In this document: piece after piece, positions 33,480 through 63,660 of the stretch
How positions within the stretch are numbered: the stretch's first letter is position 1
Layout: every line of letters starts with the position of its first letter
Assembly: GCA_029204225.1 (NCBI GenBank)
Contig: CM055102.1
Coordinates: 3,466,827-3,530,826, forward strand
DNA from: Diphasiastrum complanatum
Taxonomy: Eukaryota; Streptophyta; Lycopodiopsida; Lycopodiales; Lycopodiaceae
Reading direction: 5' to 3'
DNA: 64,000 nucleotides
Notes under the pieces: model-generated
Databases searched by the model: none
Told to the model about the DNA's origin: nothing
The model's input: only the letters and a program-made list of their open reading frames with translations
Translations under genes and position numbers: made by a program

Positions 33480-33534
<55 letters not shown>

Positions 33535-36500
33535 TATTAATGTTCGATCCATTAGTTTTAAAGGTTTATAAGACTGAAAGAGTACATTCGAAGTATGGTC
33601 TAACTTAGGGAGTTTGTAACTTTTCTGGGAAAGAGTGTTAATATCTAACATTAAACTATGACAAAGAGAGATGATTATAAGTACATAATATAACTCATCA
33701 CAAGAGTTTCAATTACTGAAAATAGTTGGAGAAAATAACCAATCTAACTAAGTGAATATCCATCATGCCATATCATGAGATGAATGCTTGAAGAAGATAG
33801 TGAGGGTGGACAATATGGGTGCCATAAGTCATGGACGATGCATGTGAGTTTGTGAAGCCCATCCTAAAGCTTTTGGTGCTACAAGTCTTAGTATTTGATG
33901 ACATTTTCTAGTCCCATTGTTTGAAAGAAAAAGTCGCCTCATCCTTTGACTACCTTTGCATTTACAACGAGGTTTGTGTCTGGAGAAGAAGGAAGTCATA
34001 TAGGATTTTATAATACTTTGTGTTGAGGATGATGCTTGCGACATATCATTCCAAACAAAATGTCTCATACTATCAATGCTACATATCTCTAGTCAACATA
34101 AGATGTCAATGAGTGGACTGTAACTGGCTATTCATGAAAGAGATAGTGGTACCTCCGTATGATCTACCTCCGTATGATCTATAATATAGAGGAGGACAAA
34201 GTGCTCGTCCATCTTGATCTTGCCCAAAATACCCAAGTGGCAAATCTCGTCTTTCCAGTAAATACCCTAGAAATGGCTTGTCTCAACATGTAGATAGTGT
34301 GATGAAACTCAAAGCTACTCCAAAGTAAACTTGAGGCTATGTGATAGTCTGGAGTCTAATCAATGAGGTAAGAGATGGACCCGTCACCTAAGTGCATGTC
34401 TCTTCAGAAAGTGAGTTCGATAGAAGTTTAGTTTGACCCTCTCTAATGGGCCCGACTAGACACTCCCAATGTGTGCATCATATTTAAACCATCAAATATA
34501 GTCATGTATACCCTCGGGTAGGTGAGGTCTGGATATACCAAACGAGTCCAATAGTCAAGAAGCTTGAAAGTACCAAGATGAGTGATAGCCTTGTCCATGA
34601 GAGGTAGTGAGTGCTAAGCATGGGTATTTGTTGTTTGCAGTATATGTGTCCCCAAACTTCAAATCCTCTAGATGGGTACAATTGGCTTGTCATAATCAAT
34701 ATCTTCTTGTTGGAATTTTCTCGCAACTAGCCTTACTTTGTATATGTTTAATGATCCATCCACTTTGTATTTGGCCTTGTAGTCCTACTTGCAAGTGATT
34801 GCTGTACCTTCTTTAGAGTTTCAACCTGCTTTACCTTTGCCAATTGTTCCAAGCCTGGTTCTTCTGCTTTGATAGATTCCTCTTCCTTGATTGACTCTTC
34901 ATTTGGCTCCAATAATGAACCATGTAACACGTCACAATTTGACCGAGTACCCAATTCATCAAATATGATGTCACGACTTAGACTCATCTTCTTGGCTTGC
35001 TGATCATACAAAGGATATGCTTTAGCTCTTTCATCATAACCTGTGAAAATGCACTCCGTAGACGTGGCATCCAGCTGCTTCTTATTTTCCTTCGGAATGT
35101 GTGCATATGCATTACATCAAAAAACTTGAAGATGTGTGTTTGGGCTTAACTCATGTAAAAGCTTCTTCAGGTGTTTTAAATTCCACCACCTTAGTTGGAC
35201 ACTTGTTTCGGACACTTGTTTTAGCACATGCACTACAGTATTGCAAGCTTTAGCCCAAAATGTATCAGGTAACTTCTTACCTTTTAGCATCAAACTTTAT
35301 ATTTCCACTATAGGCATGTTCTTCCTTCATTCTGTTGTGGCGTATGTGTATCGATCTTTGTCTCTGTGTTCTGTGCTGGATACAAAAAGGTTCAGGAGAA
35401 TTTGAGCAATGTTCATCACCTCTATTTGCCATAAGCACTTCAATGAAACGACCTCTTTGCTTTCAACCATATTTTTGATTTCACAGAAAAGTGAAAAAAC
35501 ATTTGACTTGTGTGACAAGAAATGCAATGGTGCTGCCTCCTTTTTAAAACAAACGTGGCAGCTCACTCCAATTTGCCACACATCTATCTCAGATTATGCA
35601 TTCTCTCAAATCGAGATCTTTATATATTGCCATCACCATGGCCCTGATTTTCTCACATTGCTCGAGGCTCGAGGGAATGTCTCACCTCACATTGGGCTTC
35701 ATCTTCATAGGCACTTCAGGAACATGGATAAGATATGATTTAAAGAATCAGGTATCATAGCTAAAAGCAAAAGCCCACAACAAGAAAAGAGAACACCAAT
35801 TGTTGCAATAGCATGATGATAGGGACTACAAAGGGAAATCTCACATAAGCGATAAGTACAGCCGAACTAGATAAGTTACAGGACTGTAACCACCGTTTGT
35901 CCTAATAGTCAAATGTAAAGTGAGCATTGACTTCTAACAAGCTGTGTAGATTCCTTATGGATGCGGGTGTCTAGCGGTAAGATCTGCCTCATCAGAATCA
36001 CTCTCAAAATCAGCACATGAGCAGCATCTGGAGAAGTAAGTATTGATAGATGGCTATAGAAGATCACGATCGTGTGCCAAGGTGGTATGACACTTAGCAC
36101 TCAATTAAAGCTTCTTCTTGATCAGCAAGGCTACACATCTCTTGTTCTAATGTGATATCACGGAGTGCAACACATGAAAACAATGTTGGTCCCAATTCTT
36201 GGATGCGTTCTATTTGGAAAAGAAGGCCTAAATGTTCAAGTTGTTCTGGGATGTTATTGGCAGTATTTGGGATGATATGGTATGGCAATGCATCATCTAA
36301 GCCTGGCGGAAAAGAAAAAAGATATTTTCCTTCATCATCTGTAGAATCACAAAAGGGTTTGACAGTAAGGTGAAAGAATGAAATTTGAGAGTGCAAACTG
36401 TTTTATTCTGAAAGAATGTATTTATTTAGGCTGCATCCTTGGAGAATTTTTATTATTTAATATCTTAGAAAATTGTAGACCTTTTAGAAGTTGTGCTGTA

Positions 36501-38702
36501 TTGAAAACGTTTTTGAAGGAGAAGCAGGTGAGTGCAAAAGTATCCCCCTCTCTTAAATAGAAAGAAGAGAGTTTCATGAGGGGAGGTCCAGGAGGATGAG
36601 GGATGAGTTATGCATCTTGACTGTCGAAATCAGATAATAGCATTTTAAGTCCTTCCCATTTTTATGCAATTGATTTTATAACATTCTTATATCAAAGTCA
36701 AATTTTTAGTAGGAAGTTGAATAAACAGCAAGTACTTTCAACTTCTTGTATTTGATTGATATGGAGGTGTCTTTTGTGAGAAATATGATTTAGTATTTTG
36801 GAGCACTTGTAATGTCACCTATCGGCTGTCATATAAACCCACATTTAAGAAGCTTGCCTTCTGTTTATTGAATATTTTCATGTTTTTTTCAACCATAACA
36901 AATGTTTGCTCATTAACAAACATTTAGTACAGTCTAGCCTTGGTAATTGTTAGGCCTGATGAGTGGGAAAATGATAACAATTTGGGCAGGATAACATTGA
37001 AATTTATAAGATAAAGAGTCTAACATTCACAATATAACATTGAACTGGGGTAGAATTTATGTATCTAACAATCACAATAACATGGCTAGGAGGCAAGCCA
37101 TTTATATCAAACTGTAAGCTATGAACTGTGAATTGCCATGGACGAGAGAGAGGCCTGTCAATATCATGTGAACTACCCTAGCTGGGAGGCAGGCTATTTA
37201 ATCTCTGTGAACTACGGAGGCAGGCCTTTCAATATCACGTTAACCACCCTAGCTGGGAGGCAGGCCATTGAACGTCATGTCAACAAATACAGACATACAC
37301 GTATGCCGCCCTTTTAGGACTTCATTAACATTTTTTTTGTAAATTAGTATAGTGTAAAATCTTTGTAACAATTTAGGAAGGTCAACATATGTAGAGCTAA
37401 CAATTAGTAAGGACTGTAACAAGGAGCTTCCTATGAGGTGGGAGGAAGAGCATTATTTACCCTCCCATCCTAGGTAGCTAATGGCTTTCTAGAGAATTTT
37501 GGAGAGAGATAACCAGTGAGTGGGTGTCATGGATTTGAGAGTATCCAGCCAGTGGCCATTCTTTTAGAACTCTTATGACAGCTTTCAGACAGCAGTACTC
37601 TTATTTTTGTTGATCAATAATGTTTTCTGTTGTTATAGCTTTGGGTGTTCATCATCTATCTTTGTTACAAGTGTGTCACTTCAGTAAGATGAGTTGTGTG
37701 CGTGGATGACACGCCCTAGCTTTCATTTTTAACAATATGCCTGATTGAGTATCAGTTGTTCCCAGGTCTACTTGAGTATTATTGCTTGAATTGCTATGAC
37801 AGTTTGAGCTTGTTTTTGACTGTGGTTACTGTATTCGTTTGAAACTGGGAAGTGCAAGACATATTTGACGGCATTGTAGTATTGCAGTTTCTTATTCCTT
37901 GTTCCAAGAAGACATTATATTCGTTGTTTTCTGTTATTATATTAGAAGCCAGCCAACATTTGCTCCTGAGTTAGACAAATTATTCTTTGGAACATTATGT
38001 GGTGAATCAACTTCTAGTTGGTTCTCCTGCAGGTCTAATTTCCTTGGAACTAAGTTCACAATATATGATTGCCAACCGTCACAATCGTGTGTGGCTATTT
38101 CTTCGAATCGGGCTGTGCGACGTATCGGTTCAAAGCAAGTTTCTCCTAGAGTTCCATCTTGCAGCTACAATATTGCTCACATTGCCTATGAACTAAATGT
38201 GTTGGGGACTCGAGGGCCCAGGCGGATGCAGTGCACTTTGTATTCTATTCCTGCTTCAGCAATGGAGGCGGGAGGGTGTGCTCCAACACCTACTGAGTTT
38301 GCCAAAGAAGTTGAAGAGTTATTGCCTCCACTCCCTCAGATAAAATCAAAAGCAGCTGTTGCTGACTGCAGCACTGCAGAGGCAGAATCTACTGGTGATA
38401 CCATGAGCAAGGACTCCCCACTTGTTTTAAAGAATAAGGCTCCAAGGTGGCATGAGCAGTTGCAGTGCTGGTGCTTAAATTTTCGAGGCAGGGTAACAGT
38501 GGCTTCTGTTAAGAACTTTCAACTTGTTGCAGCTAATGAACCTACACAATCTACATCACAAAGTGACCATGAGAGAGTGCTACTTCAGTTTGGTAAGGTT
38601 GGAAAAGATATGTTCACAATGGACTATAGGTATCCGTTGTCTGCTTTCCAGTCATTTTCCATTTGCCTAAGCAGTTTTGATACCAAGTTAGCCTGTGAAT
38701 GA
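30748..38702 (+). CDS. Tubby-like F-box protein (TLP), four exons, 425 aa
   Basis: Exons at 30748-31137, 31769-31856, 32152-32281 and 38033-38702 join in frame (phases 0, 1, 2) with GT-AG borders. The N-terminus has MSRRSFEV, then the F-box (about aa 70-125: [31 protein letters not shown]). The Tubby beta-barrel follows: [70 protein letters not shown], and the C-terminal signature [15 protein letters not shown]. In this family the Tubby domain binds membrane phosphoinositides and the F-box recruits SKP1 into SCF ubiquitin ligases. Length is normal for plant TLPs. A poly(A) signal AATAAA lies at 39103-39108. The first ATG was chosen because it extends the open frame; MSRRSFEV may be an alternative start. 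Confidence 0.93.
33471..33532. repeat. G-run plus (GA)n microsatellite in TLP intron 3
   Basis: Nine or ten G residues followed by about 24 GA units. Confidence 0.95.
34748..35310 (-). pseudogene. Antisense copia integrase-RT linker fragment in TLP intron 3
   Basis: The minus strand encodes the end of a copia integrase and the linker to [53 protein letters not shown] and [13 protein letters not shown], then an acidic Glu-rich linker. It has internal stops. The rest of the element is absent. It lies opposite to the TLP transcript. Confidence 0.75.
36094..36396 (-). other. Open frame of 100 aa in TLP intron 3
   Basis: An uninterrupted minus-strand frame with even amino-acid composition ([38 protein letters not shown]). 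No family was recognised. Possibly an exon-like TE remnant. Confidence 0.25.
37090..37290. repeat. Short diverged tandem repeat
   Basis: Three or four copies of a unit of about 60 bp containing CTAGCTGGGAGGCAGGC and ATATCACGT, in TLP intron 3. Confidence 0.7.
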
Positions 38703-44759: not shown

Positions 44760-47110
44760 CTAACAAAGGATTTTTTATGAACAGTCCTCAGGTTGGTTTC
44801 AAGATGCTGTCACCTTAGGTTATGGGGAGCCCCTTCCTCCTCCTAACCATTTTGTTCAGACTTTGATATGTTGCATGAGAAAGGCTGTTACTTTACATGA
44901 GTTTATTAATATGACTGATCGGGCTACTTGTCTTGCTACTGGACCTGAAGATAGGGTCCTATGTCTTGTTGATCTTCTTGGTACTTTGAAGATATATCTG
45001 GATTTTGTTAAGAAAAAAGATCCCTTGACTACCGCGGAAACCCTTTTTGGTAACATTGTCGCAATTGCAGAAAAATTTTAGGAAGAGGAGAGGTTTTTTA
45101 ACTCACACATCAGAAAAGATTTTGAATGTTTTGAAAAAGAAAATGGTATTGCTTCCACTGAGATTGCCACTCCCCTTATCCCTGATGCACCTTTATCTCC
45201 ACACCCGCTTGTCTTTGTCGATGATCTTGATGAGGATAGCGCATCGCAACAATTCTCCCAATAAATTTGTGACATTGGTGACATTTTTGCTTACAAATTT
45301 TGCCAATCCAAAAGTTGCCAAATTCCTATGGTCCCCTATCGTACGATTGAATTCAAATCCACTCTCACTTCCTTCAAATTCTGAAGCCTCCCCATTGTGA
45401 ATTTCCGTGTTCCTATACCTATTGAACTTTGGACCTTGCTTACTCACCTTACTGCAAATGAAGTACAAACCTGTAAGCTTGCTGCTCTACATAAAAGCTC
45501 TTCTCTTGAAACTCCTATTGCTTTTGATACCATCATACGAATGAACAAATTTGAACCCTCATGTTGTTCCTCCGAGCAAACTTGGGCCACAGTCATAGGA
45601 CACTTTGAAACTAGTTTCAATCGTAAGCATCTCCATCAAGCCCGCATATGGAATTGGAAAAGACCCTTCTTCAAGTGCCGTTGTGGTGATAAGTGCAAGA
45701 GTAACTATTCCGTTATCTGGTTTGACCATGCATTTTGGTTTATGATGAGTAATTTCGACAAATTCTTTCCTGGTGCTTCTTTACAAAATCAAGTCAATGC
45801 CTTTTTCCTTTAGCTACACAAGCCAACTAGAGATGTAGTCAAGTCCTACCTTACTTTCCTATTCATCCGCCAAGACATGCTTGATGCCTCTATTGAGTTA
45901 TACAAAGATCCTAATACCAAGCTACTTGCCAACCTAGGAGGTGATACGAAAAATATTTGGGAAATTGAACATCTCCTAAAAAGATCTAGCTTTTCCACTC
46001 TTCAAAACAAATATTTCCAAAACCCTAATAGAAGAAGTGGCTCTTTTAACCTCAACAATCCTTCTTCAATCAATTCTGGGCAAGGCACGTATAAGAAAAA
46101 AAAGTTTACTACTGCTAAGGGGAATGATGAACAAGGCAACAACTCAAAAAGTGACCTACTAGTGAAAAAGTTGAATTTTTTCAGGGATTGATATGGATGC
46201 AGGATTTCGAGGAAAAGGAAAAGAGGAAGATCATCACAAATCAAGTCGGTTGACTACAACTTAGTACTGGGGAAGCTTCTCTTACACGTATGCTATCGTA
46301 ATAGGATTTTTGAAACTATCCATGTGAAGTAGTTTTACACTCACATTTTGCTACAATTATTTAATATTGTTCACGACTCTTTTTATGATATTACATTCGA
46401 CTGGTCTTATCTTCCTGATGGCAAGCATGATTGGTATTTTCCTTTGGACGTGTCTTGTAACTTTGAGATTGAGAAAATGCAACAATGCTATTGTTCTACA
46501 TCTAAGCGCTTTAATAATTTCATTTCGAACAAATTTGGCCATGTTGTATCAATAGACATTGGAATTATTAGAAGTACGTTTCTTAGACGAACTTTGGAAA
46601 AAGGCCTAAATCACATCACTCATGCAACGAATATTAATAGTATTGCTTCTGAACTCTACCACGGATGGTTTAAGCTCATGAAATTATTACCTGAGGATAA
46701 CAAATTAGAAAAGGATACTATTAATGAGCATGCTTCATTTTGCAAATTGGATATCTTACAGTTTCTTAAAAATAGAAAATGGATTCACACCAAAAATACT
46801 TCTCTCGTCAAATTGACTGAAGCCCACAACGAACGTCTATGGCTTACCAAACACTTGTATATCAATGAAATAGACAAAGCACAACATAACCCTTGTTTTC
46901 TTTGTATACATTTTGTAAGAAAACTTGTCTTGGAAAGGCTTGGTAGTGCTGATTTTACACCTTTTCCTGATTATTCAGATAACTTTGTACCCATTGCTTT
47001 ACAAATCATCAACAGTAAGCTGAGTGAATCACTGCCAGTGGAATTCATAGGTAACTTACCACCTCTTGCTTTAAGATTGTTTAAGTTAGTGGCATACCCG
47101 GGAACTCTTT
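44760..47110 (+). pseudogene. Two broken ORFs between direct repeats, possibly Penelope-like
   Basis: ORF1 (about 44,780-46,190, with stops) reads GYGEPLPPPNHFVQTLICCM, CKLAALHKSSSLETP and FKCRCGDKCKSNYSVIWFDH, ending basic and Asn-rich. I do not recognise it. ORF2 (46,348-47,112) is 254 aa, with GHVVSIDIGIIRSTFLRRTL, then EKGLNHITH, a tract FVRKLVLERLGSADFTPFP, and NLPPLALRLFKL. That order resembles, weakly, the N-terminal part of Penelope-like RT proteins (LR.L..KG.., then a short LP.L motif before the RT core). No RT active site (YxDD) follows before the second direct repeat, so the element would be incomplete. The family call is inference. Confidence 0.35.
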
Positions 47111-47402
47111 AGTGGGAGTTTTGTTTTGTTTTGTTTTTTTAAAACCCTTCTTAAATGTAAGGTTTTTTTCCACGAAGGTTCAGATGGGCGCATTATTTCT
47201 GGTATAAATCATCATTGTGTTGCTTAGAGGTATTCTAACTCTTCTTCGCTTTCTCTTCATAAACGATTGGACGCGCCCATCCACTGCATGCACTATTGCT
47301 TCAACAAGAAGCAATCGTAAGTATGCATATTACTCATGCTTTGTACATCTAAAGCACGAACATCCAGCGCTCGTTGTACTTCTACTATTGTCTGAAATAC
47401 TC

Positions 47403-50194: not shown

Positions 50195-52242
50195 ATGATT
50201 CAATTATCGAGATTACAAGAAGATTGCAAATCCGTGCATTCAAGTAAGCATATTCTAAATTTTGTAAGTTCCTCAATGACATTTGGATTTAATTTCAGCT
50301 ATGGTGATATTCTGTTAACTATCTGTTTTTTTTGCAGATCTGCATTAGTAGCTCCTCGGAATATCAAAGACAATACTTCACTAGGAATGTCATTGGGCAC
50401 AATATTGACTTGCAAATCCACTGAGCATATCATGATGAACAATAGGATTTCAAATGTAAAGTGTAAAATAGCAGAGTCTTTGATGGTGGACATTCAGGGT
50501 GCTTGAGATTTTGCAAGTATTAGTAGGGAAGCATATGCAACAATATTTAAACTAATTAGAGAAGCTTTTAAGCAAGTTCAAATTAGAAAAGTCCCAATCC
50601 CTAGGACATATCACTTGAAGAAAGAGAGGGATACATTAAACATAGGTATGCATAAGATCACTGGAACTCCATTTCATATTGAGGAGGTGTATGAAACTGA
50701 TGGAAGATCGATATTCTATAGTTCACCAAACAATTTGTTTGTTGATCTAAATTACTTGCTGAGATACATCGTCACATTCTATGATATAACCTATGAAAAG
50801 GTGAATGGCAAAATAATCATAGTACTTAAGTTAGATGAGTCAGAAATTGTGAAAGGACAGAAGATGGCGAGGGTTAGTATAACTCTCATGAATGGTGCTC
50901 TATCCCAAACATAGAACCAAGAAGATTTCAGATTCAGTGTCCAGTCAGAAAATGATATATGGTGGTTGGCAGCATTTCAGGTAACTAGCCTCATTATTAC
51001 ATTACATTCGTTGAATAGTATTAATACATTGTAAACTAAGTATGATTAATTCATTGGACAAGAGCTGAAAGAGGATCATGATATATTATCATGGATATTC
51101 TCAAGGACATCTTATCCTAGGATCATCAAGGACCATATGGATGGAGGACTTCTCAATGTTCCAGGAGTTGGAGACTTCAATGTTGAATGGCACTTAGCAG
51201 GTGATTTGAAAACATTGAAATGTATGTATAATGTCTCTCACGGTGCTACATCAAAACACCCTTGTTTGTACTGCATGAAAATGGCAAAAGATGTAACTAG
51301 GAGTACAGGAATTACTAGAGAATATGCAGATCCAAACTGGAAGCCCGTGCTGGCTATCCCCTTAAAAAATGTGCATGTTTGCACTCTTCATGCAGAAGTT
51401 AGATTAATAGAAAAGATCATTTATCTTCATATAGTCTTTGCTTGGAATACTAAGCCAGCATCATTATCAAAGGAAGCTATCTCTCGATTAGATGTTTTTA
51501 TCAAAAGCAGGACTCCATAAAGGACATGTCAAAATTCAAAAAGATGAAAAACTTTCAGGAAAGAATGGGAACATGCCAACTAAGCCAAACATAGGAGGAG
51601 CAAAAGCACGTCGTTTTCTATCAAATCATACTGGTAAGGCTTCTAATATTCAACACTCAGTCTGGACAGATATTATTGCTGCCACTTAGGACTTCGAGAA
51701 AGACGGCAAAACCAGAGTACTAAAAGTTGATGTATGGAAAAAGCTTGATAGTATGATTGCTATTTTAAGAAAAGAAAAATACTCTGATATTGATAAGAAA
51801 GCTGTCCAAAGGACTTGTGTTGAGTTTGTTAATGCAATATCAAAAGCATGGGGAGAAGATCACATCACTCATTACATGGTTAGTATAAAATTTTCAAAAT
51901 GCTTTCAAATTTTCATATATATTTAGATCCAAACATAAGACTAACATTATGATTTTGACATATGCAGCACATACTAAGAGATCATACAACATTTTTGGAA
52001 ATACATATGGAAGCTTGAGTGTATGGTCATCATAAGGGATGGAGAAGTCACACTAGAAAGCACGAGCAACATTTCATCGAAATACACAACATGAACCAAT
52101 GAAAAACGAAACTACATTTGCCAATTGTTTCAGTGGTTCTACCGCAGAGTTCAGATCCGACATATGACAAAGTCCACACAATACAACAAATTTAGAAAAG
52201 CATGCAAGTTCATACAAGAAGAGAAAATTAGATGATTGCTGA
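50195..52242 (+). pseudogene. Gene A: transposase-like protein, spliced, decayed
   Basis: The model has exons ending at 50,243, then 50,338-50,980, 51,065-51,889 and 51,968-52,242, with GT-AG borders and matching phases. Features in order: LKLDESEIVKGQKMARVSIT with a candidate first catalytic Asp; EWHLAGDLKTLKCM with a second Asp; SHGATSKHPCLYCMK with a CxxC pair; and, after a frameshift, VWSS*GMEKSH, matching a QG.E..H-type helix with a candidate Glu. This D-D-E order with a Cys pair suggests an RNase H-fold transposase, but I cannot place the family. Four stops and one frameshift inactivate it. Its end overlaps the gene B end by 15 bp, tail to tail. Confidence 0.5.
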
Positions 52243-53851
52243 GTAGAAGATCATCATGACATGTTCAGAATTGCGGTGCAAATTCATTGAACAAGAGAGG
52301 AGCAATACCCAATGTAGATGTATTGCTTGTATTATACAAAGTGTCAACTCTTCATCATCAGATCTTGTATCAGATTCTATGGTAGTATTGTCATGAAGAA
52401 ATTCTCTGCTAGCGTATGCATCTAATAGATGTGCATTATCCTTATTTCCACTAAGCTCAATATAAGCGGAATACAATGAATAATGGGAGCTCCTTAAAGG
52501 AACATTCCCATCAGTAAAGCCTAAAATGTTCAAAACATAAGATCTTTTGACAAAAATGATCTCATTTGTCTTAACAAATTTATGTCCTCCTAGATAAAAT
52601 GATAAAGCTTTAACTGCCATTATAAGACTCTCCCCGACTGGGCTCAGCTTGGAATGAGCAATACAGATCTCACTCTTCAAAAAATGCCGAAGATAGTGGC
52701 CCAGTCCACTTTCCCTCTGGAACGAGGATGCGTGTTGTCTGAAACCACCTCGTCTCGCAACAAAATCATCTATTATGAGAGCATCCTGCAATAGGAAATA
52801 TATTAGCAAAAACACATTCAGTGATTGAAAACATTCAAATGCAAGGAAGATTAAACACTTACACATTCTTCATCATCAGCAGCAACCAGATCAGGATGAT
52901 CAATATAATGACCACGTACTGAAGTGGAATCATCAGTGAAATGCATTAATGATGGACGAGGGAAGCCCATCTGGGATTGAAATGCCGTGAATTCTTCATC
53001 GGATGGTCTGCCTCGCCCATCCTCAGCTATATTTGATAAAGTCTTATTCATGCATTCTTCACCGGTCATAAGACTCTCTTCATCATCAAAATCAATACCA
53101 GCAACAAGGTCATCTGTCTCAAAATCTACAAAGTCGGAGAATTCAAAAATTGTGCCGGATAATAAACATAGAACCTCGTCCTCATGATAGTCAAAAAATT
53201 TACATAAATCAGCAGTTATAAAATATACATCGTCATTAATATAATATATAGAAAAATTGAAAAGACATTTTGAATCCTCCATAGATTTGGATTTATCATC
53301 AGATGTATTTTGGCCAATGAAAGAATCTCGTAGAACATCAGTATTTAAATCAATGAAGTCACTTTCTTTATCAGGAGTGTCGATAAGAAAGTGACTGATA
53401 TCCTTAATGACTGACTGAACAGAGGAGGGTCAGCAACAGGAACTTCATCATCATCTAGGATCTGAACTAAAAGAAAAAGTACGAAACCACTCTGATATTC
53501 AACCAATCGACATTTCTTGTTGCAATACGGACACATAGAACTACTTTTGAAAAGATCAAACAATTTGGTGAACATTCTATCCAGCCTATGTCTAAAAGCT
53601 GGGAAGAAATGAACAAGATCAGTATAATGCATGTATTGGAGTTGACCTATGAAGAAAATTGGCTTGTTAAGTATATCTCTGAATCTGACATAATGTTCAT
53701 AAAATACGTCAGAATTTGGTTGTGCAGTCCTGAAAACATGTAGATATGGCCTGGATAGACTGTGGAAGTAGTCTAGGTTTTCAGTAATCCCAAATTCACT
53801 CAGAAATGAACTCAGGCCTGATTCTCGTGAGGATGATGAGGAAGAGGCCAT
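52228..53851 (-). CDS. Gene B: unrecognised two-exon protein, one frameshift
   Basis: It starts at ATG 53,851 (MASSSSSSRESGLSSFL) in a good GCCATGGCC context, just downstream of the minus-facing TATA at 54,077-54,083. Exon 1 runs to 52,863 (donor GTAAGTG) and exon 2 from 52,785 to 52,228, joining in phase 0 (DDEEC to DALIIDDF). A frame change near 53,410 (repeated AGTC) must be a frameshift or a tiny intron. Visible features: SSMCPYCNKKCRLVEY, a possible zinc-binding motif; long acidic tracts (FVDFETDDLVAGIDFDDEES); and a folded-looking C-terminal region (LGHYLRHFLKSEICIAHSKL, ALSFYLGGHKFV). No family was recognised. It is transcribed divergently from gene C. Confidence 0.5.
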
Positions 53852-53862
53852 GGCAGTAGCAT

Positions 53863-54531
53863 GACTATCGCACTTGTGCGCGTAGGAGAACTGAACCAAA
53901 ACTAACTATCAAAATGGCACAGAAGATGGATATGTACGACAGACAGATACTGAATATTGCACTTGTGTGCGAGTAGGTATACTTGCAAGCAAACGGATAG
54001 CAATGAGCGCGCACAAAAGCGATATGTTGTGAATTTCGAGAACACAAAAGTTAAAAAATTATTCGGTTTCTGTGTCATTTATACTAAATTTTTGCACGTG
54101 TGATCAACAGACTTATGACACGTGTCTACTTTCAATTCGACAACAGGCGTAGGCACGTGTGAGATGACACCTGCACACGTGTGAAATGACACCTAAACAC
54201 ATGTCGCGTGTTCATTCGATTGCTCATAAACACGTGTCACTCTCGCATTCGATCATACAAATCCCACACGTGTAATGTGATAGGGTGACATGTGTCGCTC
54301 GCTCATTTGTCCGTACAACTCCCACACGTGTGACAGGACGTTATTTCGCACGTGCGGACCCCGATATAAAATCACAAATTTCGATGAATTTTTTTCACTT
54401 TTTGTTTCGCTCCGCATATCGCATTTGTGCGCGCCCTTCACAATCGAAATTCCTCCTACTGCCTTCCATGCGCATAGGTCCGATACGTCTGCCTATGTGT
54501 CATCCCATATCGCACTTGTGCGTCTTTCCTC
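53863..54531. promoter_or_regulatory. Bidirectional promoter of genes B and C
   Basis: Eight CACGTG palindromes start at 54095, 54119, 54154, 54176, 54231, 54267, 54325 and 54349. They are flanked by a minus-facing TATA (TATAAAT, 54083-54077) and a plus-facing TATA (TATAAAA, 54365-54371). Outside the TATA boxes, in the two leaders, a second palindrome CGCACTTGTGCG or a close variant recurs (53869, 53959, 54420, 54511), and GCATAGGTCCGATA occurs twice on the gene C side. CACGTG is the G-box core bound by plant bZIP and bHLH factors. Confidence 0.75.
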
Positions 54532-55237
54532 AAATCTAATTGTTCTCTCTGATATTCGACTCGCATAGGTCCGATATACCGTACATTCTGTCCGTACATA
54601 GCGGTCCTTTGCGAGTTCTTTATCATCCCTTCCTTCTCATCCTAACCTTCATGCACAAGTCCGCTATCACATAGTTCACGCCCATGGATAGGAGAAAGCA
54701 GACAAGAAGAGACTTCTTCTCTCCTGGCTCATCTTCATCTCCTGCGGTTGCCATCACACCACCTGCTAGACCTAGAATGCGCAACCGCAACAGGTGACTC
54801 TCTGAGATACGCAAGTATCAGAGGTCAACAGCTCTGTTGATCCCAAGAGTTCCATTCTACCGTGCTGTCCGGAACATAACAAGAAATGATCTTGGACAAC
54901 ATGTTAGATTCACACCGAGTGCTCTTTAGTGCCTTCAGGAGGCTGCTGAAGATTATATTAGCCTTTTTTTTTAGGGATTTTTTTTGCTTGCCATCCATAC
55001 CAAGAGGGTTACCATAATGCCCAAGGATTTTCAGCTTCTGATGAGAATGAGGGATAGGTACCGTAGGTTACATGTATCTCAACTTGCTGCTCCTAGACCA
55101 ACTCCTGTAGATAGGACTCATCTTCCTATGAAGCGTCCTAGGAAGCAGACAGCCCCCAAGCGTGTTCCTAAGAAAGTGAAGCCTATCCCAGAATCCAGTG
55201 TAGATAATGTTGCAGTCGATAATGCTGTAAATATAGC

Positions 55238-55919
55238 TGTAAAAATTACAGCAAATAAGGATCCTAAAACACTTGAAATGATGAGAAAAACAATAGATTA
55301 TGATTTCATAAGATTAGCACAAGTTGAACCATCAAAATCCATCAAAAACCTATGCTTGAACCTCACTAAATGGCCCAAATCCTTGAAGAAGGCTTCACAC
55401 GTGTGAAAGTACGGCCTCCCACAGTCTGAGTACTGTACACCAGACCTACATTCAATCCTATAATCATTAGTAATCACAAGTACTCAAACAATTATGAACA
55501 TAGAGAGCAATTGCACCATTATGAGAGAAAAAACATGAAATTGCTTGATTGATTTTGGTGAGATATCATCACCTATATATACATGATCCATCACGGTTTT
55601 GGGCAGGTATGAGTAGCCCTAAACCTATCCCTAATGCTAATTTTGGTGGATCTTTCATCCCTACCAAGTTAGGGTTGGAATCTTGGAGATCCCTCAACAA
55701 TGCAAAAATCACCAAAAATAGCTCCTATTTTTTCTCCCTTGTATCTAAGCATAATTTGGACTCATTCCAAAGGTTCTAACACTTAGGTCTACTTGAGAAC
55801 ATCCTTATGAATGGAATCCTATGCTATTTGGCACGTGTGACAAGCCACATCATGACCATCTAACTATTTACAAGTCATATGACCAAAACTAGTCAAGCTA
55901 GAATTGTGAATTTTTAACA
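55238..55919 (-). repeat. 3' LTR of the copia element
   Basis: 682 bp, TG...CA ends. It contains the palindrome CACACGTGTG near 55,390 and GGCACGTGTGAC near 55,833. On the plus strand it follows the target duplication. Confidence 0.95.
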
Positions 55920-55933
55920 CTCCTCCTCACTAT

Positions 55934-57877
55934 CTAGCTTGGTTCAATCATGGCTTTACTAATCACTCCAAGTGATGATATGAACTTCATAAAAGGTGTC
56001 TTTTTAAGTGGTTTAGTAAGTAGATCAGCTACACATTCATTGCTTGGAACATGCTCCAAAGCAATCTCCTTGGCTTGCACCATTTCTCTCACAAAGTGAT
56101 GGCATATCTCAATGTGCTTAGATCTTGCATGGAAGATTGGGTTAGATGCAAGGTGTTGGGCTGATATATTGTCATTGTAGATGATTGGTGCCTCCTCTGA
56201 ATCCATGATCTTTAGTTCCACCAATAATCTCTTGATCCAAAGTACCTCCTTTGTAGTGGTTGTCAAAGCTTTGTACTCGACCTCGGTTGAAGATAGAGAT
56301 ATAGTTTCTTGCTTTTTTGAAAGCCATGAAACCACACCTTCTCCTATGAAAGTTGAATAGGCACTTGTTGATTTCCTATCCCTCTTGTCCCCTGCAAAAT
56401 CTGAATCACTAAATGCATGAAGGTTAATCACATCTCCTCTATATAGAATCCCAAAATCCAATGTACCCGAGATGTATCTTAGAATCCTCTTAGCCTTTTT
56501 CCAATGGATATTCAATGGCTTTTGCATGGATTGGCTCAACCTACATACACTAAAGCTAAGATCTGGTCTAGTTATAGTGATCCACATTAAGGAACCTATA
56601 AGTTGCCTAAACAAAGTGATGTCCATGAAGGATCTTTCATCATCTTCATTTGGCACTTTTACATCTTGCTCCATTGGTGTGTCAACACTTTTGCATACTT
56701 CCATCTTAAACTTCTTCAAAAGACTTTGAGCATAGTTTACTTGACTTATAAAGATAAAATCAGACCCTCTAAGTACTTCTATGCCTAAGATGAAGTGAAG
56801 ACACCCTAGATCTACCATCTTGAACTCTAAGGATAGATCTATCTTGATTTTTTCAATACCATCAACACTATTTCCACTAATGATGATGTCATCTACATAA
56901 ATGAGTAAAAGTACAATACCAACATCATCAAACTTAATGTAAAGAGTGGGATCATATTCACTTTGAACAAAAGAAAGTGAAATAAGATAGCAATGTAGTC
57001 TTGAATTCCAAGATCTTGAGGCTTGCTTCAAGCCATAGATGCTTCTTTGGAGATGGCATACTTTATTCTCCATTCCATGCTTGATGAACCCTTGTGGCTG
57101 CTCCATATAGATATCCTCTTCCAAAAAACCATTCAAGAAAGCATTAGAGACATCCATTTGACATAGAATCCATCCAAAATGTGATGCAAGTGCAATGATT
57201 AGCCTTATTGTGACCATCTTGGCCACGGGTGCAAAAGTTTCCTCATAGTCTATCCCTCTCTCTTGAGCATAACCTTTTGCAACTAATCTTGCTTTATGTT
57301 TGTTAACACTCCCATTTGCATTAAACTTAAGCTTGAAGACCCACTTGCATCCTATTACATTCCTTTGAGGTCTCTCAACAAGCAACCAAGTTTCATTCTC
57401 AATCAAGGCATCATACTCATCCAACATAGCTTTATACCATTCTTTGGAGTTCAATGCATCTTCAACATTAGACGGTTCTTCAAAACTAGATAAAGCATAA
57501 GAAGTGGATGAGATACCCTCAACTTGCTGTCCTTTGCCTTGATATGTGAGCCTTGATGGCTCCACTTTTGCCCTTGAAGATCTCCTTGGTGTGATAGGTG
57601 GGTTTGGTGCTTGCTCCTCCATGAGCTCCTCCTCGAAACTAAGATCTTGCTCCTCGGCCATCTTCTTCTTGATTGTTGGAGCACTTGAGCCTTCTTCAAG
57701 CATATGCATATGATGTTCATCAAAGATGACATCCCTTGAAACAACAAATTTGTTCAAGGATGGAAGATAGACTTTGTAGCCCTTGCTTGAGCTTGTATAT
57801 CCAAGCATGATCCCTCTTGTGGAAGATGGATCCTCCTTGGTTCTTGTTTCTAATGGCACATCACATAACATATACAC
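55934..57877 (-). CDS. Copia RT-RNase H (second part of the polyprotein)
   Basis: 647 aa, open from 57,877 but really the continuation of the gag-integrase frame, to which it is out of phase by one base. Motifs: STRGIMLGY (integrase end); RT with CKWVFKLKFNANGSVNKHKA, ARLVAKGYAQ, CQMDVSNAFLNGFLEEDIYM, SIYGLKQASRSWN and the YVDDIIISG active site; and RNase H with SDSDFAGDKRDRKST, SLSSTEVEYKAL, IYNDNISAQHLA, ARSKHIEI and VADLLTKPL. It is complete apart from the single frameshift, and so probably non-autonomous now. Closely related intact copies may exist. Confidence 0.93.
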   Translation of the reverse strand: MYMLCDVPLETRTKEDPSSTRGIMLGYTSSSKGYKVYLPSLNKFVVSRDVIFDEHHMHMLEEGSSAPTIKKKMAEEQDLSFEEELMEEQAPNPPITPRRSSRAKVEPSRLTYQGKGQQVEGISSTSYALSSFEEPSNVEDALNSKEWYKAMLDEYDALIENETWLLVERPQRNVIGCKWVFKLKFNANGSVNKHKARLVAKGYAQERGIDYEETFAPVAKMVTIRLIIALASHFGWILCQMDVSNAFLNGFLEEDIYMEQPQGFIKHGMENKVCHLQRSIYGLKQASRSWNSRLHCYLISLSFVQSEYDPTLYIKFDDVGIVLLLIYVDDIIISGNSVDGIEKIKIDLSLEFKMVDLGCLHFILGIEVLRGSDFIFISQVNYAQSLLKKFKMEVCKSVDTPMEQDVKVPNEDDERSFMDITLFRQLIGSLMWITITRPDLSFSVCRLSQSMQKPLNIHWKKAKRILRYISGTLDFGILYRGDVINLHAFSDSDFAGDKRDRKSTSAYSTFIGEGVVSWLSKKQETISLSSTEVEYKALTTTTKEVLWIKRLLVELKIMDSEEAPIIYNDNISAQHLASNPIFHARSKHIEICHHFVREMVQAKEIALEHVPSNECVADLLTKPLKKTPFMKFISSLGVISKAMIEPS

Positions 57878-59901
57878 CCAAAAACTTTCAAGTGATTAAG
57901 ATTGGGTTTCTTTCCATACAACATCTCATAAGGAGTTTTGTCTTCAATTGCTTTGCAAGACACCCTATTCATCAAGTAGTTTGCACATACAAGAGACTCA
58001 CCCCAAAAGGATTTGGGCAAACAAGCATCTAATCTTAAAGCCTTAGAACATTCACATAATGTTCTATTCCTTCTTTCAGCAACTCCATTTTGTTGAGGAG
58101 TGTAAGGACAAGAAGTCTCTTTCTTGATCCCTTCCTCCTCACAAAAGGCCTTGAACTCATTGGAGATGAATTCTCCACCATTGTCACTTCTAAGAATCTT
58201 GATGCTATGATTATGATGCTTTTCCACAAACAACTTGAACTTTACAAAAGTATCAAATACTTGAGACTTGAAGGAAAGTAAGATTACCCAACAATATCTT
58301 GAGTAGTCATCAATGAAGGTTAAAAACATGGATGAACCTCCATTAGATTTGGTGCTAGCAATGTGCACATCCGAGTGTATGAGTTCAAGAGGATGAGATG
58401 ACTTTGTGATGGAGTTAGGAAACACCTTCTTATGTGCCTTGGATAAGGCACAAGCTTCACAAACCTTGTCTTCCTTCCCAATAGACCTTGGTAGGCCTAA
58501 AGCATACTCCTCCTTGATCATAGCCTCCATGGAACCCGAGTTGACATGTCCAAGTCTTTTGTGCCATAAAGTAAAGGTAGATATCTTGCTCTTCTCGGCC
58601 AACATGACAACATTAGTATCCACAAATGCATCCAACTTATAAAGTTTGCCAAGTCTAGTGCCCTTAGCCACTATCTTACCCTTCTTCTTGATGAAACATT
58701 CATTTGAAGCAAAGTCAACATTGAAACCATTGTCTACCATTTGGCCAACACTTAGTAGATTTTTTGTTATTGTAGGAATGTACAAAACACCTTCTATGTT
58801 GATCTTTTTGGAAGATCCTAAGCAAAGGGGAATGCTACCAACTCCTTCAATCTTACAAGCTTCATCATTTGCTGTATAGATAGACTTTATAGGTCCATCA
58901 TAAGATAAGAGAGAAGAGAAAAACTCCCTTTTACTAGTCATTTGTGAACTAGCACCCGAGTCAATCCACCAAGGATCTTCTCCTTTGAAGCTTGTTGAAG
59001 AAAATATGGACATCATGAGAGAGTCCTCATGTGAACTCTCCTCCTCCTCCTCTTTGCTCATGTTGTCTTGGCTTTGATCTTGCTTCCTCTTGAAGCATTC
59101 CGAGGCATAATGCCCCATCTTGCTACAATAGTAGCACTTCACCTTTGATTTGTCCTTCTTGACTTTGGTGGTTGATGGAGATGCCTTTGGGGGTCCTTCT
59201 TGATCCTCAAGCTTTGTAGACTTCTTGAATGTTGATCCTTTGCCTTTGGACTTGCCTTTGCCTTTGGTGAAGAGAGCTTGGTCATCTCCACCTTGGATGG
59301 AAAGCCTATCCATCCTCTCTTGCATTTGGCTCCTTCTTGATTCCTCGGCCATGAGCGTGCCGTGGAGTTCTTCAAGTATGGGTAGCTTACCCATAATTGC
59401 ATATCCCTGAACCAAATTGTCAAATTCAAAGCTTAGTCCATTCAATATGAGTTGAACAAGCTCTTCATCCTTGATAGGGTCACCTATAAAGGCTAGCTCT
59501 TTGTTCAATTCCTTTACTCTTAGGACAAAAGTATGTGCACTCTCTCCTTTCTTTTGATAGCTTCTATAGATTTGATTCTTCAAAGCTAACATTCTAGTTT
59601 GGTTCTTGGATTCATAGACCTTTTGCAAAGTCTCCCAAGCATCTTGAGCTGAAGTGCAATCTCCTACCTCTCTTAAGAGTTCATTTGCAACATTCATTTT
59701 TATGCAATGTAGTGCAACATTGCACCTCTTGATGTATTTGGCTTTTTCTTGAGGATGAATAGGTTCACCCTCCTTACCATTTACAATATCCATCAGATCT
59801 TGCATGATCATGATAGATTCCATTCTAACTTTCCATATGGAATAGTTAGTTTTGTTGAGCCTTTCATTAGTATCCAAAAGATATGCATTTATAGATGCCA
59901 T
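57850..59901 (-). CDS. Copia gag-protease-integrase (first part of the polyprotein)
   Basis: 683 aa from ATG 59,901 (MASINAYLLDTNERLNKTNY). Domains in order: UBN2-type gag (about 20-200; YSIWKVRMESIM, AWETLQKVYES), Lys/Ser linker, CCHC knuckle CYYCSKMGHYASEC (about 255), aspartic protease WWIDSGASSQMT (about 313), pre-integrase LWHKRLGHVN, the zinc-binding part CEACALSKAHKK, and the integrase core with all three catalytic acids (HSDVH, RSDNGGEF, PQQNGVAERRNRTL). It stops at GCICYVMCH* through a one-base shift next to the RT frame. It supplies particle, protease and integration functions. Confidence 0.93.
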   Translation of the reverse strand: MASINAYLLDTNERLNKTNYSIWKVRMESIMIMQDLMDIVNGKEGEPIHPQEKAKYIKRCNVALHCIKMNVANELLREVGDCTSAQDAWETLQKVYESKNQTRMLALKNQIYRSYQKKGESAHTFVLRVKELNKELAFIGDPIKDEELVQLILNGLSFEFDNLVQGYAIMGKLPILEELHGTLMAEESRRSQMQERMDRLSIQGGDDQALFTKGKGKSKGKGSTFKKSTKLEDQEGPPKASPSTTKVKKDKSKVKCYYCSKMGHYASECFKRKQDQSQDNMSKEEEEESSHEDSLMMSIFSSTSFKGEDPWWIDSGASSQMTSKREFFSSLLSYDGPIKSIYTANDEACKIEGVGSIPLCLGSSKKINIEGVLYIPTITKNLLSVGQMVDNGFNVDFASNECFIKKKGKIVAKGTRLGKLYKLDAFVDTNVVMLAEKSKISTFTLWHKRLGHVNSGSMEAMIKEEYALGLPRSIGKEDKVCEACALSKAHKKVFPNSITKSSHPLELIHSDVHIASTKSNGGSSMFLTFIDDYSRYCWVILLSFKSQVFDTFVKFKLFVEKHHNHSIKILRSDNGGEFISNEFKAFCEEEGIKKETSCPYTPQQNGVAERRNRTLCECSKALRLDACLPKSFWGESLVCANYLMNRVSCKAIEDKTPYEMLYGKKPNLNHLKVFGCICYVMCH

Positions 59902-60712
59902 CTAGTCTCCTAATCAAGGACTTGACACAAATGAAGGTTACTTCTATTGATTTGATTGAAGGTCTACCTTATCCCACTTCTTAGGGACCTGAAAAGATCA
60001 GTAATAGACTTCCTATAAAGATCTAAGAATGATCTCTAACAAAATCAAATCATAGAATACTAGAAACAATGCACTTGCTTGATTGAAGTAGACAATACTA
60101 GTAGAATTGCCCCTCTTTCTATAAAGAACATTAAAGCTTCCAAATGATATGATCAAGAGTGAATTTCAGCAACCTAATATACTTCCAAAATCACTTGTAA
60201 AAGATCTAAATGGAACTTAATGAGGATGCAACACAATCTACTATCCAATCACAAGCAAAAAATGATCAAAATTGATGAAAAATTGATCTAATTTGGTGCA
60301 TAAGTCAAGCAATGGTTGGACTGAACCTAAATCACTTTAGGAGGTGCCTACTACACCTTAGAACAGCCTTGAAGAGTCCCCAAAACTCTGATCTTCCCTC
60401 TCCTTGAATGCTAGAAAGCCTTCTCTATGAAATCACCTCCAAAACTCGCTTAGAAATCAATGTTTGGAGCAAGCAAAACTTGCTATCTTGGTAATGTGAA
60501 TTGAATTCAACTTTGCCTCTGGTTTTAGACACCTAAACACCTGCAAATGAAGTCACACAACACCAATCTCCAATGTATTTGACTCACTTTGAGTTCTAGA
60601 ATCAATACTAGATGCTAAGATCCAATCTACACAAGATTTAGATAAAAAATTGTGATAAAATTGAATGCAAACCAAGGATTTAGCTCATTTCAGCCTTTAG
60701 GCTCTGATACCA

Positions 60713-61386
60713 TGTAAAAATTACAGCAAATAAGGATCCTAAAACACTTGAAATAATGAGGAAAACAATAGATTATGATTTCATAAGATTAGCACAAGTT
60801 GAACCATCAAAATCCATCAAAAACCTATGCTTGAACCTCACTAAATGGCCCAAATCCTTGAAGAAGGCTTCACACGTGTGAAAGTACGGCCTCCCACAGT
60901 CTGAGTACTGTAAACCAGACCTACATTCAATCCTATAATCATTAGTAATCACAAGTACTCAAACAATTATGAACATAGAGAGCAATTGCACCATTATGAG
61001 AGAAAAAACATGAAATTGCTTGATTGATTTTGGTGAGATATCATCACCTATATATACATGATCCATCACGGTTTTGGGCAGGTATGAGTAGCCCTAAACC
61101 TATCCCTAATGCTAATTTTGGTGGATCTTTCATCCCTACCAAGTTAGTCTTGGAGATCCCTCAACAATGCAAAAATTACCAAAAATAGCTCCTATTTTTT
61201 CTCCCTTGTATCTAAGCATAATTTGGACTCATTCCAAAGGTTCTAACACTTAGGTCTACTTGAGAACATCCTTATGAATGGAATCCTATGCTATTTGGCA
61301 CGTGTGACAAGCCACATCATGACCATCTAACTATTTACAAGTCATATGACCAAAACTAGTCAAGCTAGAATTGTGAATTTTTAACA
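60713..61386 (-). repeat. 5' LTR of the copia element
   Basis: 674 bp, nearly identical to the other LTR but lacking 8 bp (GGTTGGAA near 61,146). It is preceded, in element orientation, by the target duplication at 61,387-61,391. Confidence 0.95.
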
Positions 61387-62051
61387 ATAGCTACCTCTGT
61401 TTTGGATACTCCTATAATTCTTGTAGATACTACACATCCACCTCCTCCTCCTCCTCCCAATTTCTATACATATATAGATTTAGATGATTATCTTAAATTT
61501 GAGAAAGACATATCGGATGCTATAGATACAATTGGTACTCCTTTTTGTTTTAGACTAGAAGAACTTGATTTTAGTATTAATTTTAGAGTTCTAGATTGTC
61601 TGGATCTCAAAGACAGACGGGCTTCTATCAGTGATCCTGTGATAGAGTCCGGGTTGATACTCTTGCAATTTGACATTGCAAGAGATTCATCAAACGAGTT
61701 GTTGGTGCTGAGTAACTTTCTGCTCCAGGCCTTCAAGGAGAATAATGACACATTGTCACAGTGTCTGACAAGTGGATTCACACCAGCAACAAAGTATCTG
61801 GTCATTCCTTATCATACCAAGTAAGATATATTAAGTGCTTCTTCCTGTTTTATGCATTAACATTGACATTTTCAATTTAAATATGTCTCAGAATTGCCGC
61901 TAAAGTACTTTCAATCTTATTTTGTAGTGACCACTGGAGTTTAAACCTGATCTCTATTAAGAAATCTGTTAATAATATTATTAAATGTTCTTGTGTCAAG
62001 ATGAATTTGGCAAAAAATACACATAAGGATGTAGATATATTCATTCCATAT

Positions 62052-62968
62052 CTAAGTAAATATATTCCTACAGACGTTCCCCATTCTGTGGACTGGCAGA
62101 TCGTCAGCTTGGAGGTAAACTATGTCTTCCTTAATAGCACTCTGTCTCCATAAAGTTGGTGTCCTACAAATACTAGCACTCGAGAAAAAATCAACAAATG
62201 TATGCAATGAGATAAACCAACTTAGGTGAACAATTTTTGAGCCTGTGCTTATCTTCATAGCATTTTTAATATCAATGAGTAGCTTGCATCTCAAGGATTC
62301 AGAAACAATGCTGTCAGGAGTAGGCCACTCATCACTTTGAAAACTAGGCAATGGAATTGCTTCGAGCTTGCCAAAACCTCCATCTGTTTGTGGCGTATAT
62401 AAAGATTCATAAAAATAGATACCACAATCTGCAAGTTCCTTTGGACTTCTTCCTCTGTATTGTAGCTTTCCAACATCAGATTGAATCATGTCTAATATTC
62501 TTGCAAGTGATTGTGCGGGCTCCCATTCACTTATGGATGATGGATATAAATCTGAAAGAAAAAAACAATGTTGAAGCATTTAAATCATAATCTGAAGAGC
62601 ATCAATGAAGGAAATTACCTATAATTGTTGTAGAGTGCATATGTTTTGATATACTTACAATTACATTTTTTATGATCATGAGGATTGACATCATGTACTT
62701 TGATTTTTGAATGCATATATACATGTTGTAATAAGACTTCTGATATCGATTGACCTCCCAGGGTAGTCTTAAACTCCAAAATTTTTGCTTTCCAATAAGA
62801 TTTGTAAGTCATTTTTGCTCTTTTCTTTTGTCGAAAATTGTCCTTTGATTATGGATGCAGCAATACCCATGAGTTCTTCGTATATTTTGTTGGCTTCCAG
62901 TTATCAGCTTCATCTTTCTCATTGTAAAGAATCACAGAATCGATTGTAGATCTGGGTCTCCTCGCCAT
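62052..62968 (-). pseudogene. Gene D: unrecognised two-exon protein with a DCGIYF motif
   Basis: It starts at ATG 62,968 (MARRPRSTIDSVILYNEKDE). Exon 1 runs to 62,659 and exon 2 from 62,551 to 62,052, joining in phase 1 through GTAAGT and TTTCAG. One in-frame stop TAA (from CAA by C-to-T) lies near 62,855. The only suggestive motif is ELADCGIYFYESL, which resembles the catalytic Cys box of Ulp1 proteases, with a later ESLRCKLLIDI like the R..L...I tail of that fold. The oxyanion Gln six residues before the Cys is absent and no His box precedes it, so the protease call is uncertain. It overlaps the last visible exon of gene C tail to tail. Confidence 0.4.
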
Positions 62969-62969
62969 T

Positions 62970-63660
62970 GCTATTTTCAAAGCTTGGGTGCCAAAAATCT
63001 CTCTGATATGTTACTTAATTTTAATTTTTCATATCACATTTAATCTAATGTGAATGCCAACATAGTCACAGTTACTGCGTATACCATATTTTATGTAACT
63101 GTACATACTATATTTCTATAATTGTAACTAGTATAGTTAGAAAATTTCATTATACTAACCAGCATAGTAAAGTAAATTTAACTTGAGATATTGACGTCGG
63201 GCAGATTAGCACGTGTCGGACAAGAAGAAGAAACCAATGGGATACGTCCATGCTGTCCGGACACAAATTTCAAACTTTTCTATATTGCATTTTTATTTTT
63301 TAGTTAATTTGAACTACGTTACATAGATTTCAAATCTGTGCATTTTGATTGGGCCTGGTGACGGTCGAAACTAAACAAAAAAAATAAAAGTATCTTTACA
63401 AAGGGTCTTTTTGATATTGATAACTCCTCTAATGAAAATCTCTGCGAGAGTTCCTGACGGAGGAATCATCATTTTTTAGTGTGTGCGAGGGTTCCTAGAA
63501 TCTGAATCTTCAGAACCCTCGCAAAGCATCAAGATCATTCTACCAACCCTCGCAAGGTGCCTAAATGAAATCAGAGAATTTTGTGAAGAAGGTCCCTGCC
63601 AAAATTTGGGTGGAACTGAGCAAGGGAAAGTGGATTTCACCTAATACGCACTCTAAATTC
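62970..63660. other. Region between genes D and E
   Basis: No gene was seen. It holds AT-rich imperfect repeats (GTAACTGTACATACTATA, GTAACTAGTATAG; 63,070-63,175), one CACGTG (63,210-63,215), and an inverted repeat TGCGAGGGTTC / GAACCCTCGCA (63,484-63,494, 63,513-63,523) with a third copy AACCCTCGCA at 63,545. It could be a shared divergent promoter, or an element end. Confidence 0.4.

Follow-up and report, generated by a model that had tools for sequence, protein, structure and literature searches.

Plant DNA transposons can carry an accessory Ulp1 (C48) gene beside the transposase. In Vandal-type Mutator-like elements (MULEs) this gene is KIU, in which Ulp1 is joined to VANC (PMC13317346). 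Compared here is a locus in 64,000 nucleotides of Diphasiastrum complanatum (assembly GCA_029204225.1, CM055102.1, positions 3,466,827 to 3,530,826; hereafter, the window), on contig C11 of a 1.74-Gb genome. The window holds a decayed copy of a DNA transposon with terminal inverted repeats (TIRs), family A. Its relatives are numerous in the same genome, and uninterrupted copies of family A carry a gene predicted to join three parts: a histone H3 fold; a basic linker; and a C48-like domain. On balance, we favour a reading in which such a gene, a regular part of the family-A transposon, would be used against silencing at chromatin.

VANC and the KIU-carrying elements are credited with an anti-silencing effect. 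In some MULEs, VANC genes that bear Ulp1 (KIU) are reported to make related elements hypomethylated, and what the Ulp1 domain contributes is described there as unknown (PMC13317346). The word Ulp1 does not occur in the available part of the VANC paper (PMC5735166). KIU resides in MULEs that lack TIRs, whereas the element described here has TIRs (CATTAG...), an H3 fold as the partner of the protease-like domain, and a transposase with no Pfam match. A DNA transposon with an accessory Ulp1 gene is already known; what is new, as far as checked, is that the partner is a histone and that this histone recurs in three families (A, B, and C). No transposon-borne histone or H3-Ulp1 fusion was found among the open-access titles and abstract openings listed (subscription papers and Repbase lay outside this search), and the word "histone" is absent from the main text of a 2026 review on gene capture by plant transposons (PMC13317346).

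The Fusion Gene in Uninterrupted Copies

Twenty regions of 10 kb were taken from the genome. The copy on contig C7 (L017) has four exons with GT/AG borders and consistent phase, yielding an open predicted product of 470 residues. The histone profile PF00125 matches residues 27-123 (E = 1e-27), and the protease profile PF02902 matches residues 316-442 (E = 1.1e-10; 42.2 bits against a cut-off of 20.7). The order is histone, basic linker, Peptidase_C48. A second open copy, L026, gives 8.7e-27 and 5.4e-10 (39.9 bits) for the same two profiles. In 8 of the 13 copies examined apart from that of the window, C7 among the eight, every one of the six splice sites is GT/AG.

Only the best candidates of each genome search were scored, and copy numbers are therefore lower bounds. 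With the 331-residue exon of copy L025 as query, the best 121 of 9,788 candidates all match at 83-100% identity (100% being the query itself) when stops are read through. Each of these family-A places covers at least residues 12-316 and so extends from the H3 fold across the linker into the beginning of the protease. By our own count, 23 of the 121 rows contain no stop. Premature stops in family-A copies are TAG in 12 of 14 counted. A genome-wide PF00125 search, for which the best 150 of 6,325 candidates were scored, found 13 canonical H3 places (E near 1e-45). Most of the remainder are divergent folds with E between 1e-28 and 1e-24, a good many of them in open frames some 300-400 residues long. 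PF02902 gave three matches among the best 150 of 520 candidates, in a search that hardly sees domains split between exons. The anatomy of the element and of its fusion gene is, in our judgment, nearly certain.

The Window Copy

The decayed element occupies positions 50366-63434 of the window, as delimited by blastn against copies L014, L017 with L039, L025, L026, and L027. Its left end was not found; the right TIR is kept (63403-63434, minus strand, CATTAGAGGAGTT..., one mismatch). The plus-strand frame from 54684 begins MDRRKQTRRDFF... and runs through the H3 fold (54684-55067), which PF00125 matches at 4.7e-26 with X placed at the stops. The first part of the basic linker follows on the same strand (55068-55237), up to a nested Ty1/copia element on the minus strand (55238-61386). 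Its long terminal repeats (55238-55919 and 60713-61386) are 98.2% identical over 682 bp, and a 5-bp target duplication, ATAGC, lies at 55233-55237 and 61387-61391. We take the insertion to be copia from what its minus-strand open reading frames (ORFs; 57850-59901 and 55934-57895) resemble.

Beyond the insertion, exon 1 continues on the plus strand (61392-61820) with the rest of the linker and the N-terminal C48-like part, to IPYHT; exon 1 as a whole is 94.8% identical to that of C7. Exon 2 (61928-62114, plus strand) runs from the His box, NDHWSLNLI, to DWQIVSLE, and 187 of its 187 bases align to C7 exon 2 (94.1%), with GT/AG borders. The intron between them (61821-61927) follows the end of exon 1 at 61820 (AA/GT) and precedes the start of exon 2 at 61928 (AG/T), so that the joined sequence reads HTNDHWSLNLI in consistent phase. 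A deletion junction at 62139-62150 replaces about 1.2 kb present in other copies: exon 3, with the Cys box SPQQNDSF[S/N]CGWY on the plus strand, and exon 4.

A preliminary description of this locus had proposed that one reading frame encodes a centromere-type H3 fold and a basic linker, and leads, across a later copia insertion and a phase-consistent intron, to the His box of a C48 protease, all within a mobile unit. The fold, the linker, the insertion, and the intron are as it said. The frame does continue across the insertion site, where uninterrupted copies such as L016 have NAVNIATSVLDTP; and the uninterrupted copies that it proposed to look for are present in the same genome (C7 and L026 among others), spanning both halves in one predicted gene. 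The claim that the window frame encodes H3 fails: that frame is broken at codons 38 (TGA), 82 (TAG), and 97 (TAG), and the window copy therefore does not encode the fusion protein. As to the His box, the deletion of the Cys-box exon leaves window exons 1b and 2, which by themselves have no match to PF02902 up to E 10; the C48 assignment comes from the complete copies. The window copy of the element, with its stops, its copia split, and its lost Cys-box exon, is dead.

As a separate observation, the context of window codon 97, TTTTTTTTTAG/GG, resembles a 3' splice site.

Two Further Families

A second and more diverged family, C, carries the same predicted H3-C48 fusion. The best 121 of 8,736 candidates all match, at 72-89% identity besides the query itself, and every row covers at least query residues 30-288, from H3 to the start of the N-terminal C48 part. 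PF00125 matches at 2.7e-26 and 1.4e-24. The C48 profile of family A matches family-C pieces with E as low as 1.4e-12, whereas reversed decoys reach 0.26 at best. The histone tail begins MARTKSTAR in L065 and L066. The Cys-box exon is present in four of eight further family-C windows, and the Cys itself is kept in all five exon-3 stretches (L066, L068, L069, L070, and L074; L068 and L069 are near-duplicates). No family-C copy among those examined is open in full; L066 has stops and a frame break.

Family B comprises 13 loci (L009-L013, L015, and L018-L024), of which only L020 is shown whole, the other 12 being 10-kb windows. The complete L020 element (L020:784-9740; 8,957 bp) has 38-bp TIRs at 95% identity. 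The family-B histone (PF00125, 4.2e-27) starts with the tail MARTKQTAR (L009 and L020), has a long acidic and Pro-rich insert, and ends like an ordinary H3. The preliminary description would have been refuted by copies with H3 and protease in separate genes throughout; this was not seen in families A and C, where the two are fused. Family B has H3 with no detectable C48. H3 therefore exists also without the protease; the fusion is still not an accident of the window locus.

A scan of viral contigs with alignment A2 for viral relatives gave 66 pattern matches, none of them confirmed.

The C48-Like Domain

A PDB search with the C48 piece of mixed copies returned Ulp1-like proteases (6dg4, E = 0.003; yeast Ulp1, E = 0.024). 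In family A, 13 of the 14 rows readable at the His position keep the His; of the 11 readable further on, all have the Gln and 7 have the Cys. His, Gln, and Cys stand together in C7 and most copies; the Asp that would complete the His-Asp-Cys plus Gln set is replaced, and the domain is therefore filed as C48-like, not as a proven peptidase.

A minus-strand ELADCGIYFYESLY at 62.3 kb was considered as an inverted Cys box and rejected. It belongs to a fragment of gene 3 of the element (62055-62848, minus strand), whose ADCGIYFYESLY is not the C48 Cys box and whose family-B homologue has IKMGIFFYDHMY; the true Cys box is in plus-strand exon 3.

The Histone Half

The preliminary description drew its centromeric assignment from CENH3-like residues, among them an extra residue in loop 1. 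The element H3 does share LLIP, AL..LQEAAEDY, and a diverged N-terminal tail with CENH3/CENP-A. It differs in being about equally near canonical H3, in being transposon-borne and C48-fused, and in lacking a loop-1 extension in families B and C; the one extra residue is confined to family A. The family-A fold is 53% identical to host H3, 52% to rice CENH3, 49% to Arabidopsis CENH3, and 47% to human CENP-A, the last three from sequences entered by hand. A Trp at the border of loop 1 and α2, present in the plant CENH3s compared, is absent from the element H3. Among PDB matches of the family-A fold, the best 60 of 177 are H3 chains by name, one of them named only "histone domain-containing protein".

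In a tree of 15 rows, families A and C form one clade (99/98) and all transposable-element rows group together at only 74/20. A clade of these rows with plant CENH3 has an approximately unbiased test value (p-AU) of 0.457 and is neither shown nor rejected. Given these similarities and this tree, the transposon H3 is not called CENH3, and the centromeric origin first proposed for it is not supported. A host CENH3 candidate at C22:38025226 (45-residue query) proved to be a canonical H3 fragment; host CENH3 was not found among the candidates read, and a tree including it was therefore not possible.

Set against host canonical H3 (L001-L008), the A and B folds are each 53% identical, and family B keeps MARTKQTAR and the H3-like C-terminal end. 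The differences are the Pro-rich insert in B, the C48 fusion in A and C, and IPRAPF in place of IRKLPF. By alignment, H113, R116, D123, and K115-R-V-T are kept in the element H3; these are residues of H3-H3' pairing and DNA contact.

The Element and Its Transposase

The C7 element is 8,681 bp long with perfect 35-bp TIRs (CATTAGAGGAGTTCTCAATATC...). With up to one mismatch allowed, the genome contains 1,755 copies of the TIR and none of the pattern read backwards; with the pairing of the repeats, this bears out the proposed mobile unit. Six end pairs, their pairing assumed, show no target duplication of at least 4 bp (C7, four other pairs, and L020), and one of them has TCA on both sides; a further pair, a palindromic duplication of the flank, was omitted from this check.

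Three observations concern the ends. The palindromic arrangement is seen at C1:21359432 and C1:21391595, where the outer flanks of two element ends, separated by 32 kb, are mutual reverse complements. Pairs without a visible target-site duplication include C1:20721697/20729787, C2:29743085/29752455, the C7 copy, and L020, their pairing being assumed from distance and orientation. On contig C1, the stretches 65.1-66.7 Mb and 95.0-100.7 Mb, together about 7% of its length, contain by hand count 41 of the 83 exact TIR places among the matches listed (100 for the whole genome).

Family A has, from left to right, the transposase (+), gene 2 (-), H3-C48 (+), and gene 3 (-). In family B (L020) the same set stands in another order: gene 3 (+), H3 (+), gene 2 (-), and transposase (-). 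Homologues detected by phmmer link the transposase and gene 3 between A and B, gene 2 between A and L028 (family C), and the coiled-coil N-terminal part of the transposase among A, B, and C; family-B gene 2 is assigned by place and look only. In the window, gene 2 lies at 52228-53905 (minus strand). Genes 2 and 3 have no Pfam match above cut-off, and a piece of family-B gene 3 found nothing useful in the PDB.

The window transposase gene (50507-51923, plus strand; ORFs 50507-50914, 51050-51517, 51492-51686, and 51690-51923; alignment A1) is broken, as is that of the C7 copy, and is RAG1-like by weak similarity; similar RAG1-like stretches lie at L021:1882-2964 and L020:7081-8163. The family-B middle exon matches in all 113 scored (the best of 13,995 candidates). 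The transposase ORFs of A and B and the spliced B transposase have no Pfam match above cut-off, MULE included, and the middle exon alone, unspliced, has no PDB match. For the spliced family-B transposase (typed from several copies), with E allowed up to 10, the PDB gives 15 matching chains; every one is RAG1, the best only at 0.14. These matches fall on the stretch with the catalytic Glu and a zinc-binding His pair. For a profile of the A and B transposase ends, RAG1 accounts for 14 of 19 PDB matches (best RAG1 at 0.15), with an unrelated designed protein first at 0.13. Local alignment to mouse RAG1 (sequence entered by hand) scores 84 by Smith-Waterman, against 34.4 +/- 5.2 for shuffles, none of 1,000 reaching 84.

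What the transposase resembles in RAG1/Transib is a catalytic-Glu region with a zinc-module HxxxxH (ITHYMHI..AH..GSL..W...GME) and an upstream CxxC. It differs in its marginal statistics (E = 0.14) and in that no 5-bp target duplication is seen in the element; the TIR also starts otherwise than the CACWATG that we presume for Transib. The comparison is no more than suggestive of a RAG1-like transposase; such a transposase in a plant, if real, would be notable by itself. A wider reading, less likely than not, we offer tentatively: a plant DNA transposon superfamily moved by a RAG1-like transposase, in which an ancient H3 capture was kept as a core gene and became, in two lineages, a chromatin-borne Ulp1-type enzyme. 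The element would then supply a nucleosome subunit of its own, de-SUMOylase included, and with it rewrite the chromatin by which it is silenced.

Selection and Possible Use

For 14 family-A copies, some of them decayed, ratios of nonsynonymous to synonymous change (dN/dS) were calculated by the Nei-Gojobori method and pooled across pairs; L029, L030, and L035, which repeat other rows, were left out. The pooled value is lowest for H3 (0.33), followed by C48 (0.44), the N-terminal tail (0.56), and the linker (0.82). Both domains thus lie below the linker, which serves as internal control. Copy L027 against the other 13 gives 0.14 for H3, 0.44 for the linker, and 0.44 for C48, so that C48 there equals the linker. 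A diverged second H3-C48 copy in L028, compared with the 14 over aligned parts, gives 0.19 for H3 and 0.22 for C48. The family-B fold stands at 0.45 over 13 copies.

How might such a gene counter silencing? The H3-C48 gene would be spliced and expressed. The H3 half would pair with H4 and enter or bind nucleosomes, and the linked C48-like domain would remove, or merely bind, SUMO-like modifiers on silencing factors. The site of action would be the element's own chromatin, or heterochromatin or centromeres, and the outcome would be an element expressed and mobile, much as is thought for the Ulp1-bearing VANC (KIU) genes in some MULEs. As a matter of plausibility only, H3-type chromatin could offer substrates to a protease that is carried to it: the CENH3-loading factor αKNL2 of Arabidopsis is acted on by SUMO and by the SUMO protease ULP1d (PMC12903445). 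Taken by itself, the anti-silencing use of the fusion falls somewhat short of an even chance.

Several points weigh against this interpretation. Only four of 15 family-A copies looked at, the window's included, are open through all four exons (L017, L026, L034, and L035). L034 and L035 are nearly identical, and both have Tyr at the Cys position, a replacement found in 4 of the 11 readable family-A copies (L016, L034, L035, and L038). At the position aligned to the Asp of yeast Ulp1, which we take to be catalytic, family A has Lys, and both family C and the diverged copy in L028 have Asn; the C48-like domain may thus be a pseudo-protease. In family C, three of the five Cys-box stretches have a stop two codons past the Cys, and L065 lacks the stretch. 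No C48 was detected in the 13 family-B loci (best E 2.2; positive control 1.7e-74). The dN/dS pairs are dependent, and the figures come without a significance test. Moreover, TAG at codon 97 is common to 6 of 15 family-A copies (L031, L032, L033, L036, L038, and the window), and lines with a broken gene therefore still multiplied; spread of that stop needs help in trans, readthrough, or splicing around the stop.

A different use is integration targeting: the H3 half, perhaps derived from CENH3, would direct the transposition complex to particular chromatin, at centromeres or elsewhere, with the C48-like half as a binding scaffold and not an enzyme. The lost Asp position would suit a scaffold; LLIP, AL..LQEAAEDY, and the extra loop-1 residue recall CENH3; the TIR places cluster on C1; and H3 is kept by all three families. 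Families B and C are without the loop-1 extension, though, the tree does not link the transposon H3 to CENH3, and nearly all readable family-A copies retain His and Gln, and most the Cys. Integration targeting is judged unlikely.

Less probable by a good margin of our confidence is that H3 and protease are captured cargo with no role for the element. Stops in 98 of the 121 scored rows, and a codon-97 stop that spread with the element, are what passengers would show. Against this stand dN/dS values under 1 for the two domains, with the linker above them, the recognizability of both domains across families A and C, and an H3 gene that stays with the same gene set in A and B despite the differing order. 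A last reading would make the H3 fold and the His box two unrelated things that merely lie side by side and were linked on inspection, as the window's stops and its nonsignificant C48 part might suggest. It is refuted by ORFs that in many copies run unbroken through both parts within a single exon, and by significant Pfam matches in one spliced protein, and can be set aside.

To return to the anti-silencing use, an H3 half that enters nucleosomes would be a natural tool for aiming a protease-like domain at chromatin, and the contest between transposon and silencing could then be tested from the chromatin side. Since a few copies are open, the predicted protein may exist in the plant today.

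Flanking Open Frames

Just left of the element, at 46333-47112 of the window, lies an open frame of 259 residues whose best Pfam match has E = 0.19. The ORFs at 30715-38702 look like exons of a Tubby-like (F-box plus Tubby) gene, presumably of the host.

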